Assembly: GCA_035546535.1 (NCBI GenBank)
Contig: DASZWQ010000052.1
Location: 1-44,951 of the forward strand
DNA from: Pirellulales bacterium
GTDB lineage: Bacteria > Planctomycetota > Planctomycetia > Pirellulales > JACPPG01
Direction: 5' to 3'
DNA: 44,951 bases
Both the position numbers and the translations under genes were made by a program. How positions within the stretch are numbered: position 1 is the first letter of the stretch; each line of letters starts with the position of its first letter. Below the pieces are notes generated by a model. That model was not told where the DNA came from. It did no database searches and saw nothing but the letters and a program-made list of their open reading frames with translations. Of the stretch, positions 1,251-9,683 are shown piece by piece.

Positions 1251-2303
1251 ATGCGACGGCGCGCCATGACATTGGTGGAACTGCTCGTCGTGATCGCGAT
1301 CATCGGGATGTTGATCGCGCTGTTGCTGCCGGCGGTGCAAATGGCGCGCGAGGCCGCGCGGCGCACGCAATGCGCCAACAATCTCAAGCAAATCGGCCTG
1401 GCGCTGGCGAACCACGAAGCGGCACTCAAACGATTGCCCGCCGGGCAGGTTTCGCAGCAATATCCTCCCGACCCGACGCATCCTTACACGTTCTATCGCT
1501 GGTCGGCGCTTGCGCAGCTATTGCCTTACATGGAACAGGCCAACGTGCGCGACTTGCTCGATACCTCGCTTCCCTTGTACATGCCGGGCGCGGGGTATCC
1601 TTTCGCCGCCGCGAATCTGAACGGTATCGGACAGATGCTACCGATGTTTCTCTGCCCGAGCGACATCGCCGAGCAGGTAAAGAGCCAGATGGGTCCGACC
1701 AACTACGCGATGTGCGCGGGCTCAGGCGCGGGCGGAGGGACGCCGTTTGCAACCGACGGCATTTTCTACGTCAACTCGACAACCACTTACGCCGACATCA
1801 CCGACGGTACTTCGCACACGATCGCCGCCGCCGAGAGCTTGTTGGGCGCCGATACGCTGCGCGACAGCGCGGGCGCATACATCGGGGTATCGCCGGAACG
1901 CACGTACCGATTCGTGCTGGGATTCACAGCCACGCCCGACCTGACCGACACGAAGTGCGCCGCGGCGACACTCTTTAATTCGAGCGCCGGCAACGGCAAC
2001 GACCCGCGCGGATTTGCCTGGTGCAGCGGCGAATACCGCTGCGCGTTGTACAACCATTACTACCCACCGAACTCGTCGACGTGCGATTGCATCACGTCGG
2101 TCACCGTCGACCCGACGCCGCCGCCGGCGAAACCGGTTCTCTATTCGGCCTACGGCTGGCGCGCGGCGCGCAGCCTGCATCCTGGCGGCGTGAACGTCTT
2201 GATGGCCGACGGTTCGATCCAGTTCAGCGCGGCGAACGTCGACCTGACGGTGTGGCGCGCCCTTTCAACCCGGGGGCAGGCGGAAGTCGTGGGCGGTCCA
2301 TAA
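1251..2303 (+). CDS. DUF1559 prepilin-like protein (H-x9-DG type)
   Basis: A 350-residue type II secretion/pilin-like protein of the large DUF1559 family expanded in planctomycetes. The start at 1251 is chosen because it gives MRRRAMTLVELLVVIAIIG, a type IV prepilin N-terminus with the usual Glu after the processing site. Longer in-frame starts would run into the preceding gene. The hydrophobic helix (about 6-30) is followed by the family hallmark (AREAARRTQCANNLKQIGLA). Near the C-terminus lies the His...Asp-Gly motif (HPGGVNVLMADGSIQF), giving the H-x9-DG signature. Cys pairs around 270-300 may form disulfides. The role is presumed to be a pseudopilin or surface protein. The substrate is unknown. 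Confidence 0.9.
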   Translation: MRRRAMTLVELLVVIAIIGMLIALLLPAVQMAREAARRTQCANNLKQIGLALANHEAALKRLPAGQVSQQYPPDPTHPYTFYRWSALAQLLPYMEQANVRDLLDTSLPLYMPGAGYPFAAANLNGIGQMLPMFLCPSDIAEQVKSQMGPTNYAMCAGSGAGGGTPFATDGIFYVNSTTTYADITDGTSHTIAAAESLLGADTLRDSAGAYIGVSPERTYRFVLGFTATPDLTDTKCAAATLFNSSAGNGNDPRGFAWCSGEYRCALYNHYYPPNSSTCDCITSVTVDPTPPPAKPVLYSAYGWRAARSLHPGGVNVLMADGSIQFSAANVDLTVWRALSTRGQAEVVGGP

Positions 2304-2305
2304 GC

Positions 2306-2330
2306 CGCGCCGGGTAACCCTCGCGTTTTT
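2306..2330 (+). terminator. Likely Rho-independent terminator after the DUF1559 gene
   Basis: Right after the stop codon, CGCG..GGG, a TAA loop and CCC..CGCG form a GC stem with a small internal mismatch, followed directly by TTTTT (2326-2330). The position 3 nt past the stop and the T-run fit an intrinsic terminator. Confidence 0.6.
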
Positions 2331-2350
2331 CACCCGAAGCAAACAGCACG

Positions 2351-3556
2351 ATGTCGAGATCCATTGATTCTTGTGTACGGTTCGCACTGCTGCTAACAGT
2401 TGCGTGCGTCAGCCAGGCTGCGTCGAAAATCGAGGCGTCGGAACTCCTGATCGTGGACCGGCTCTCGAACGCGGTCGACCGTTACAGCAGCACGGGCCAG
2501 TTTCTGGGCACCCTGATCAGCGACAGTACGAACCTGAACCAGCCCGACGGCATCGCGCTGTCGCCCGATCACACGAAGTTGTTCGTGGCGAGTTCCCAGA
2601 ACAATGAAGTGGTGGAGTACAACTACGACGCTGCGACGGGAACGGCCGGTGACCCGACTGTCTTCGCGACAGCTGCTCAGGGGCTCGCGTTTCCGAACTC
2701 GATGGTCTTCAGTCCGGACGGCACGAAGCTTTACGTCGCCAATCTCGGCGGAACGGGGGTTACGCAACTTAATCTGGACGGTACTTCCGCCGGACCGAAT
2801 ATCACGGGTGGCAGCAGCTCGGAGTTCAGTGGACTCGCTTTTACTTCCAGCGGCGAGCTTCTCGCCGGCGGCTTCGACGGGGGAACGGTCGCGATCTCGA
2901 ACCCTGCGGTCAGTTCGTTCTCGGATCTGGTTACCCCGACCTCGTCCCTGCAGGGGCTGGCCGGCGTGCTCGTGAACGGCAACGACCTGTACGTGACGGG
3001 CCTGTTTTCGGGCACGTTCGAGAAATTCAACCTTGCCACGGGCAACGTCGACCCGACGTTTACGCAGGCGACCGGCCTCGGTTTTCCGCAAGGCGTGTTC
3101 CTGGCGCCCGACGGCAACAGCCTGCTCGTGGAGGTTCTGGGGTTTGCCAACGGCGCGGGCAACATCTCGGAATACAGCTTCAATGGTGCCTTCCTGGGAA
3201 CCTTCGCGACCCCGGCAACCAGCGCGTCTCAAGGATTCATCGAAGCAACGACCATGATTGTCGTGCCGGGGCCGACGGGATCCGTGTTGACAGGCGACGT
3301 GAATCACGACGGCATCGTCAACAGCCAGGATCTCGCGCTGGTGTCCAGCCAATGGTTGCAATCGGGCCCATCGCTTCAAGGGGACGTCAACGGCGACGGC
3401 ATCGTCAATTCGCAAGACCTGGCCTTGATCTCGTCGAATTGGCTCCATTCATCGAGCGCAAGCGCAACAGCCGTGCCCGAGCCGTCGACCCTTGTGCTGG
3501 GCCTGGCGGGATGCGCGCTGCTGATCGCTCGCTGCGCGTATCGCCGGCGTGGATAG
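2351..3556 (+). CDS. Exported beta-propeller protein with dockerin repeats and PEP-CTERM
   Basis: A 401-residue secreted protein. An N-terminal signal peptide (about 1-28, ending near CVSQAAS) is followed by an NHL/SMP-30-like beta-propeller (about 30-310) with repeats such as LSPDHTKLFVAS, FSPDGTKLYVAN and LAPDGNSLLVEV. Two dockerin type I calcium-binding repeats follow (about 318-372), GDVNHDGIVNSQDLALVSS and GDVNGDGIVNSQDLALISS, which are nearly identical in their Ca loops. The end is a PEP-CTERM tail (VPEPSTLVLGLAG, then Arg-rich). Dockerins normally bind cohesins, and none is in this window. The domain set suggests a cell-surface or matrix protein, not a cytoplasmic enzyme. The ligand of the propeller is unknown. 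Confidence 0.85.
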   Translation: MSRSIDSCVRFALLLTVACVSQAASKIEASELLIVDRLSNAVDRYSSTGQFLGTLISDSTNLNQPDGIALSPDHTKLFVASSQNNEVVEYNYDAATGTAGDPTVFATAAQGLAFPNSMVFSPDGTKLYVANLGGTGVTQLNLDGTSAGPNITGGSSSEFSGLAFTSSGELLAGGFDGGTVAISNPAVSSFSDLVTPTSSLQGLAGVLVNGNDLYVTGLFSGTFEKFNLATGNVDPTFTQATGLGFPQGVFLAPDGNSLLVEVLGFANGAGNISEYSFNGAFLGTFATPATSASQGFIEATTMIVVPGPTGSVLTGDVNHDGIVNSQDLALVSSQWLQSGPSLQGDVNGDGIVNSQDLALISSNWLHSSSASATAVPEPSTLVLGLAGCALLIARCAYRRRG

Positions 3557-7772: not shown

Positions 7773-8051
7773 TCACGGCTTTTTCAGCGGTTCCTTTCGT
7801 TCCAAGATCGGCGGGCAGTGCCGAGACATCTCGGCGTTCAGTGCGATGAACTCCTTTTGATCATCGGGCACATTCTCCTCATAGAAGATCGCTTCGACCG
7901 GACATTCGGGTACGCAAGCGTCGCAATCGATGCACTCTTGCGGATCGATGTATAGCATCTGTTCACCTTCCCGAAAGCACTCGCAGGGGCACACGACGAC
8001 GCAATCGGTGTACTTGCAACCAAAACATGGCTGCGTAACGACATAAGCCAT
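7773..8051 (-). CDS. 7Fe ferredoxin, FdxA type
   Basis: A 92-residue electron-transfer protein with one [3Fe-4S] and one [4Fe-4S] cluster, by comparison with Azotobacter ferredoxin I. Cys 9, 17 and 50 fit the 3Fe site and Cys 21, 40, 43 and 46 the 4Fe site. Extra Cys residues occur at 12, 23 and 25. Cys 12 and 25 match the free cysteines of the Azotobacter protein, and Cys 23 is additional. The conserved C-terminal part (EFIALNAEMSRHCPPILERK) is present, though the tail is shorter than in Azotobacter. AAAGG lies 7 nt upstream of the ATG. Divergent from the sigma-kinase gene. Confidence 0.93.
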   Translation of the reverse strand: MAYVVTQPCFGCKYTDCVVVCPCECFREGEQMLYIDPQECIDCDACVPECPVEAIFYEENVPDDQKEFIALNAEMSRHCPPILERKEPLKKP

Positions 8052-8151
8052 CGGTTCGCCTTTCAGCTAAAATAATGTGGGATTTGCCCTCCAATCAGTA
8101 CATGCAAATTGGCGCGCAACAGCGGACAGCTTTTCGGCGGAATTTTCCCGT

Positions 8152-8158: not shown

Positions 8159-8165
8159 TTTAGTG

Positions 8166-9683
8166 GTGCCCGACGACCCATTATCTGAAAGCCAGGAGTC
8201 GCCGTCTTGGCTGCTAAAGTGCGTGGCAAATGGAGACGAGCGCGCGACTACCGCGGTCTTTCAACGGTATGCAACACGCCTGACCGCTTTGGCACGAAGT
8301 CGGCTGTCAAAAAAACTATCAGCGCGAATTGACGCCGACGATATCGTTATGTCCGCCTATCGGAGCTTCTTCATAAGGGCACGGCAGGGTGCCTTTACTT
8401 TGGAGCGAGGCGGAGACCTCTGGCGGCTCCTTGTCGAAATTACATTGCACAAGCTGTATCGACAGCACACGTTTCATACCGCGCAACGACGCTCGGTACG
8501 CATGGAATCAGACGAGCCGGAGAAAGCAATTCGGGATGCGTCCGCGCCAATTCCGTCACCCGACGTTGCGTTAGCAACTGCGGAAGAGCTTGAGTTGATT
8601 ATGGCCGCGTTGCCGCCCGAGGTTCGGAAGGTACTCGAACTGCGCCTGCAAGGACACGAACTTCTGGAAATTGCCAAAGCCCTCAAGCGATCCGAGCGCA
8701 CGATCCGACGGTGGCTGGATCAGTGTCGACAAGCCATGCGGCGCAGATTCCCCTCTGTGTCTACGCGGAGTGCCACCCGCTCAGCCCCCATCGAGCGAAA
8801 GCCTGTGGCGCGAAGAACCAATAGGCGGCGACCGTCGACGACGATCAATGCGGTTCTTGCGTTCGACGACTTTACTTTGATGCGTCAAATTGGCGCGGGA
8901 GCGACAGGTAAGGTTTATCTGGCTCTGGACAAGCGAGCAAACGCGACTGTCGCGGTGAAGTTTTTGAAGAAGCGGTATCTGAACAATCCAGAGGTCGTTT
9001 CGCGGTTCGCCTACGAGGCGCATCTGTTGCAGCAGTTAGAGCACCCCGGTATCGTTCGCATATTCGGGCTCGGCAGGACGCCGAACGAGGGCTTATTCAT
9101 CGCAATGAGCTTCGTGCCTGGCGGCGACCTTGGAGCCCGGTTGGTCGCGGGTCCGGTCCAGCAAGACGCGGCGGCACGTTGGGTTAGCGAAACCGCCGTT
9201 GCGCTCGAATACGCTCATCAGAGAAACATCATCCACTGTGATCTCAAGCCGAGAAACATTCTGCTCAGCAACGACGATCGCGTCGTTGTCACGGATTTTG
9301 GCTTGGCACGCACTTCAAACTCAGAGCTTTTTGGCGACGAGTATATAGCGGGAACACCCGCGTTCATGGCACCGGAACAGGTCGAACCCAGCTGGGGCCC
9401 TTTGGCAGCGAGGACCGACGTCTACGGATTGGGAGCAGTGCTCTATAGCCTTTTAACCGGTCGGCCGCCGCATGAAGGAGCAGCCGTAGAAGTATTGGCT
9501 GCGATTGCGTCCGGCCAAACGCCGACCTTCCCGGCCCACTCACGACCTGAACTGGTTGAAATCTGCCGGCGCTGCCTAGCAGCGGATCCTGCTGACCGTT
9601 ATCCAACAGCGCTCAGCGTTGCAGAAGCACTTTCGGGAGTCGAACGCCACGATCCGGTGAACCCCCGCGGAGTTCTAAGCTGA
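8166..9683 (+). CDS. ECF sigma factor fused to Ser/Thr protein kinase
   Basis: About 505 residues joining two regulators. Residues about 5-190 are a planctomycete-type ECF sigma factor: region 2 around DADDIVMSAYRSFFIRAR, and region 4 as LPPEVRKVLELRLQGHELLE followed by an HTH (SERTIRRWLDQCRQAMRRR). A basic linker (about 195-228) leads to a Hanks-type kinase (about 234-490). It has a Gly loop (IGAGATGKVY, 242-251), ATP Lys265, alpha-C Glu284, catalytic loop HCDLKPRN (357-364, Asp359, Asn364), DFG (377-379) and an APE motif (402-404). Catalytic Asp and Lys are intact, but the HRD Arg is Cys358, so the kinase is non-RD and may not need activation-loop phosphorylation. There is no membrane helix, so it is probably cytoplasmic. 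Numbering is from the GTG at 8166. Codon use is less GC-rich than the neighbours, which hints at transfer. Confidence 0.9.
   Translation: MPDDPLSESQESPSWLLKCVANGDERATTAVFQRYATRLTALARSRLSKKLSARIDADDIVMSAYRSFFIRARQGAFTLERGGDLWRLLVEITLHKLYRQHTFHTAQRRSVRMESDEPEKAIRDASAPIPSPDVALATAEELELIMAALPPEVRKVLELRLQGHELLEIAKALKRSERTIRRWLDQCRQAMRRRFPSVSTRSATRSAPIERKPVARRTNRRRPSTTINAVLAFDDFTLMRQIGAGATGKVYLALDKRANATVAVKFLKKRYLNNPEVVSRFAYEAHLLQQLEHPGIVRIFGLGRTPNEGLFIAMSFVPGGDLGARLVAGPVQQDAAARWVSETAVALEYAHQRNIIHCDLKPRNILLSNDDRVVVTDFGLARTSNSELFGDEYIAGTPAFMAPEQVEPSWGPLAARTDVYGLGAVLYSLLTGRPPHEGAAVEVLAAIASGQTPTFPAHSRPELVEICRRCLAADPADRYPTALSVAEALSGVERHDPVNPRGVLS

Follow-up and report, generated by a model that had tools for sequence, protein, structure and literature searches.

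The fusion gene raises the question of why an ECF sigma factor and a complete Ser/Thr kinase should be joined in a single polypeptide, and which target gene such a protein might serve. It is located in a window of 44,951 nucleotides of a Pirellulales genome, and it was analysed together with its relatives in genomes of the same order and class. This comparison shows that a single sigma family remains associated with a single non-RD kinase clade, the two being either fused or encoded by overlapping genes. On the basis of these sequence data, the gene product is best explained as a soluble kinase-gated ECF sigma factor that is dedicated to its own ferredoxin gene as a conserved target, a reading to which we assign a probability of roughly 0.6. 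The features of the locus are compiled in Table 1.

The open reading frame had been proposed to begin at position 8166, and this GTG start, the coordinates and the numbering of the residues K265, E284, H357-C358-D359, N364 and D377 were found to be correct. The TTG codon at position 8109, which was selected as start by ORF finding, is unlikely to be used, since a strong SD-like sequence GGGAGGG is located immediately 5' of the GTG codons 8163 and 8166 and since positions 8102 to 8128 represent promoter-like DNA. According to Pfam, residues 14 to 194 match Sigma70_ECF (PF07638; 4e-18, 66 bits), residues 140 to 189 match Sigma70_r4_2 (PF08281; 3e-8, 34 bits) and residues 237 to 479 of the same chain match Pkinase (1e-46). 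As is characteristic of ECF (group 4) sigma factors, sigma2 and sigma4 are present and separated by just a short linker. The highest 19-residue hydropathy window of the protein reached a value of 1.35, and no membrane helix was detected. Pfam domains and hydropathy thus agree with the original prediction that sigma regions 2 and 4 and a complete kinase share one chain without a membrane helix. The statement that no anti-sigma factor is encoded nearby also holds, as the flanking genes code for a DUF1501 protein, an FdxA-type ferredoxin and a squalene-hopene-cyclase-like protein. In a predicted structure of the full chain, the kinase fold mostly showed pLDDT values above 90; no confident sigma-kinase interface appeared in this model, the underlying alignment of which contained kinase relatives only and left the sigma part poor. 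The linker between the sigma and kinase parts comprises 21 to 74 residues across the family.

Table 1. Features of the sigma-kinase locus (positions refer to the window)
Feature	Position	Strand	Remarks
FdxA-type 7Fe ferredoxin gene	7773..8051	-	92 aa; divergent; second, dedicated fdxA copy
TGTCCG-N17-GCAT promoter-like element	8102..8128	-	Directed toward ferredoxin; proposed target promoter of the sigma-kinase
ECF sigma factor-Ser/Thr kinase fusion gene	8163..9683	+	GTG at 8163 or 8166, stop at 9683; 505 aa from 8166
ECF sigma domain, residues 14-194	8205..8747	+	Sigma4 HTH at residues 140-189
Ser63 codon	8352..8354	+	Proposed phosphorylation site; invariance observed, role putative
Sigma4-kinase linker	8748..8861	+	Predicted disordered; pLDDT 31-49 over most of its length
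Hanks-type kinase domain	8862..9641	+	Non-RD (HCD); short activation loop without the usual Thr
His357-Cys358-Asp359 catalytic-loop codons	9234..9242	+	

When 396 genomes from the order were searched, more than 20 fused homologues were detected, and a profile built from them yielded 70 full-length matches among 397 sampled genomes of the class. This conservation in related genomes rules out a frameshift, a sequencing error or chance as the origin of the fusion. The refuting case envisaged earlier, namely homologues with an HRD motif and an error in the present sequence, was excluded, because fused homologues are common and all of them are non-RD. No orthologue was present in four genomes of the close genus, and viral contigs gave matches to the kinase domain only. 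The assignment to Planctomycetota is supported by homologues and by protein family hits. Matches to the PADLOC entries PD-T4-6 and MAD6 likewise covered the kinase domain only and were taken as generic. A report of this exact fusion was not found in the open literature searched, a set that did not include the main ECF classification paper.

A single clade (SH-aLRT 96) united every fused kinase with 17 small non-RD kinases from gene pairs in a mixture-model tree, for which the HxD residue and the Lys/Thr behind it had been masked, and a larger kinase tree agreed with this picture. Fused and split states alternate within this clade. The 11 changes counted on the tree represent an upper view, since some of the apparent splits (L148, L160 and L288) are due to a single in-frame stop, either within the kinase or in the stretch that separates it from the sigma part. 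Where the two parts are split, the start codon of the kinase gene mostly shares bases with the stop codon of the sigma gene, in the form ATGNNTGA or ATGA. Members of this sigma family are found next to large kinases as well, mostly of about 900 to 1300 residues, which are RD kinases in 19 of 21 cases and contain a strongly hydrophobic stretch in 14 of 21. A second, separate group of HCD kinases (L230, L260 and L262), two of them large, is paired with the same sigma family and has no linked ferredoxin. Some close members of the sigma family (L222, L227, L231, L239 and L240), in which the residue equivalent to Ser63 is kept, have no kinase gene in the fetched flanks.

The kinase part contains the P-loop Lys265, the alphaC Glu284, the HxD Asp359, Asn364 and the DFG Asp377 of Hanks-type Ser/Thr kinases, with Cys358 at the position where the Arg of the HRD motif is expected in RD kinases. 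A set of 93 distinct relatives was examined, comprising 78 fused kinases and 15 kinases from gene pairs that adjoin a close relative of the sigma part. None of them has Arg at this position, which is occupied by Cys in 52, Gly in 37 and Ala in 4 kinases. As Lys265, Asp359, Asn364 and Asp377 are invariant in these relatives and only one of them lacks Glu284, the kinase looks active, and the non-RD type with intact catalytic residues noted in the original prediction is a property of the whole set. Since the 93 kinases had been recovered by a profile of non-RD fusions, the search was repeated with the sigma part alone; among 60 loci retrieved in this way, the fused proteins with a readable catalytic loop were again all non-RD. 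A profile search had been suggested to determine whether the HCD motif is conserved in homologues, and the answer is divided: as judged from the aligned kinases, the conserved feature of the loop is the loss of Arg and not the Cys itself. Moreover, a Thr that precedes the GT of the P+1 loop by 5 or 7 residues is present in 13 of 75 fused kinases versus 71 of 83 RD kinases that have no linked sigma. Phosphorylation of the activation loop is probably not the switch of a kinase that has neither the HRD Arg nor the Thr usually found in this loop, and the missing Thr fits the independence from such phosphorylation that had been proposed.

Region 2.2 of the sigma part reads D56-A-D-D-I-V-M-S63, and Ser63 is present without exception in all 108 rows of the sigma family. 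Alignment of the family profile over its full length placed this residue at the Glu of the sequence DVVQEAF in E. coli sigmaE (1or7), which corresponds to E407 in the core-binding region of sigma70. The preceding acidic motif is DADD in the fusion protein and DPED, DAED or DADD in most of the relatives. These alignments suggest Ser63 as the prime candidate for phosphorylation.

A likely target was provided by a conserved divergent ferredoxin gene and a promoter-like element, both of which had been overlooked in the original prediction. An all-against-all comparison of the flanking open reading frames, performed without prior expectation, yielded one recurrent neighbour, the divergent ferredoxin. 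It is located upstream at 75 of 79 fused loci and at 17 of 23 loci with small paired kinases, compared with 0 of 21 loci with large ones; most of the small paired loci without it fall outside the kinase clade. The linkage is kept in genomes of the same order as well as in other families of the class. The ferredoxin encoded in the window aligns over 89 residues, nearly end to end, with the 7Fe ferredoxin I of Azotobacter (1frk). Like ferredoxin I of A. vinelandii (FdxA 7Fe), the linked ferredoxins keep the cluster-ligating cysteines, which occur in FdI-like spacing in 92 of 92 cases. They differ from it in forming a second fdxA lineage that shows more variation and is coupled to the sigma-kinase, and against NCBIfam FdxA the window ferredoxin scored 118 bits, under the equivalog cut-off of 135. 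At least two fdxA copies are present in 30 of 30 genomes with a sigma-kinase versus 13 of 266 others (Fisher p 3e-31, hand-read lists), one copy being the usual count in genomes of the order. The linked ferredoxins also fall on one side of a supported branch in a tree that is based on few columns and from which only this split was used. Copy number and branch mark them as a dedicated second fdxA lineage. An extra Cys at position 23 is found in 44 of 92 linked ferredoxins, and Val occupies this position in 24 of 24 unlinked copies examined. The second fdxA gene of the genome is itself divergent to another, distant ECF sigma gene (G000:C12:60754-62000; L119, L313). The sole RD (HRD) kinase in or next to the clade (L225 in G008; sigma 1450-2055, kinase 1881-3398) has a divergent ferredoxin and a promoter-like element, so that the ferredoxin link is independent of the loss of Arg.

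The promoter-like element was analysed in 80 non-redundant intergenic regions between sigma-kinase and ferredoxin genes. The pattern ACCGGACA was present in 22 of these regions versus 0.17 expected, and ATGC-N19-GACA in 18 versus 0.1 expected. Read toward the ferredoxin, the element takes the form TGTCCGGT-N14-cGCATt, which has the geometry of an ECF promoter, and it is mostly positioned 37 to 65 bases ahead of the fdxA start. By two-fold cross-validation, 60 of 80 held-out regions scored above the 99% level of shuffles, compared with 1 of 80 on the opposite strand. Upstream of unlinked fdxA genes, including the second copy of this genome, the element is absent and the scores resemble those of random DNA. 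No motif indicative of autoregulation was detected toward the sigma gene in the intergenic regions. In the kinase clade with L079, L082 and L139, the spacer is one base shorter (18/20 versus 5/70, p 1e-12) and A is commoner at position 6 of the first box (-35). Such a variation of spacer and -35 box by kinase clade is as expected if the sigma part itself reads the element. Across the genome under study, matches to the pattern were equal in number to the control (9 versus 7). Upstream of the fusion gene L141 the element is kept (score 12.8) and the ferredoxin is missing; a different long reading frame, perhaps an insertion, lies directly behind the element. The apparently conserved N-terminal sequence LEPD of relatives such as L087 and L092 is the DNA element read in frame, and the true starts of these genes are therefore probably located further downstream.

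Several known systems offer points of comparison. ECF43 sigma factors are devoid of acidic residues and are activated by kinase phosphorylation of a Thr in sigma2.2, with EcfP/PknT of Vibrio parahaemolyticus and EcfK/PknS of Xanthomonas citri as studied pairs (PMC8999054, PMC13147305). Like ECF43, the fusion protein comprises an ECF sigma factor without an anti-sigma factor and with a Ser/Thr kinase as partner. Unlike ECF43, the family consists of one soluble chain or of overlapping genes, its non-RD kinase is devoid of a membrane helix, its acidic motif is retained, a Ser stands in for the Glu of QE and the proposed linked target is a ferredoxin. As the acidic DADD motif is kept, the parallel with ECF43 activation is a partial one. 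In ECF59, a Ser has been proposed as phosphorylation site (PMC8103513), and ECF59, ECF61, ECF62 and ECF217 are planctomycete ECF groups encoded beside kinases (PMC8999054). The sigma family of the fusion resembles these groups in that it also adjoins kinases, namely large RD ones, in the order; a fused, non-RD and ferredoxin-linked branch was not found in the literature searched. ECF41, ECF42 and ECF57 likewise carry a regulatory domain fused behind sigma4, but the extension is a catalytically complete kinase in the present family and a SnoaL-like, protein-binding or WD40-like domain in those groups.

According to the preferred reading, the sigma-kinase would recognise the TGTCCG-N17-GCAT element and turn on fdxA. 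With less certainty, the kinase may phosphorylate the sigma part, either in cis or from one copy to another. That the kinase controls its own sigma part, as suggested in the original prediction, is the natural interpretation, since this sigma family otherwise occurs in genes that overlap those of the same kinase clade. Ser63 would be the best candidate site, as it sits where canonical sigma factors have the core-binding Glu, and a phosphate at this position could restore the negative charge and promote the binding of RNA polymerase, the effect being activation. Two observations speak against this part of the model, since the retained DADD motif means that the sigma part, unlike ECF43, may bind core without a phosphate, and since Ser63 is equally invariant in members of the sigma family without a kinase found nearby. 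The first of these would suit an inhibitory kinase, one whose C-terminal domain covers the sigma regions, or switches them off by phosphorylation, until a signal releases them. A covalent fusion is well suited for such an intramolecular lock, and ECF41 and other groups provide known examples of regulatory extensions at the C-terminus (PMC8999054). However, split genes, in which the kinase has a start codon of its own, are found all over the clade and do not sit easily with a purely covalent lock, the invariant catalytic residues indicate that phosphotransfer matters, and the predicted model gave no confident interface; inhibition is accordingly regarded as a rather unlikely alternative.

The input to the kinase could plausibly be a redox, iron or Fe-S signal, given that the proposed target encodes a 7Fe ferredoxin. 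The presence of the ferredoxin also lends plausibility to Cys358 of the HCD loop as a redox switch of the kinase, and Cys is indeed the commonest residue at the position of the HRD Arg. Yet redox control by Cys finds no support as a general mechanism, since Cys itself is not conserved, 41 of 93 relatives having Gly or Ala instead, and since relatives with Gly retain the same architecture, ferredoxin and promoter element; this switch is highly improbable. The ferredoxin might instead act as sensor or electron donor of the kinase as well as its output. Co-inheritance of a dedicated ferredoxin lineage with the sigma-kinase, the complete set of cluster cysteines and the frequent extra Cys at position 23 are consistent with such a closed redox loop, but the promoter element suffices to explain the linkage and the kinase contains no ferredoxin-binding domain recognised by Pfam, so that we consider the loop unlikely. 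Equally doubtful is a self-contained redox circuit in which the non-RD kinase of a phosphorylation-gated sigma factor, both on one chain, responds to the state of the dedicated 7Fe ferredoxin that is also the main transcriptional target. Finally, the link might be positional only, the element serving another regulator and the sigma-kinase acting elsewhere in the genome. Numerous matches to the pattern elsewhere (139 versus 46 for a reversed, crude control in 40 genomes) would allow for this, but the element is absent from unlinked fdxA genes and varies with the sigma-kinase clade, and the linkage persists within the order and in other families of the class, which makes a purely positional link improbable.

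Kinase control of ECF sigma factors has been recognised from gene neighbourhoods and a few studied pairs, and for the planctomycete kinase-associated ECF sigma factors no target or signal was found in the literature searched. The sigma-kinase family represents a compact, soluble single-gene version of such a system, in which both the proposed target gene and a 27-base element are conserved. This makes the circuit and its probable target directly testable, including whether the kinase switches the sigma part, at which residue, whether it acts in cis or in trans, and the reason for the loss of Arg.
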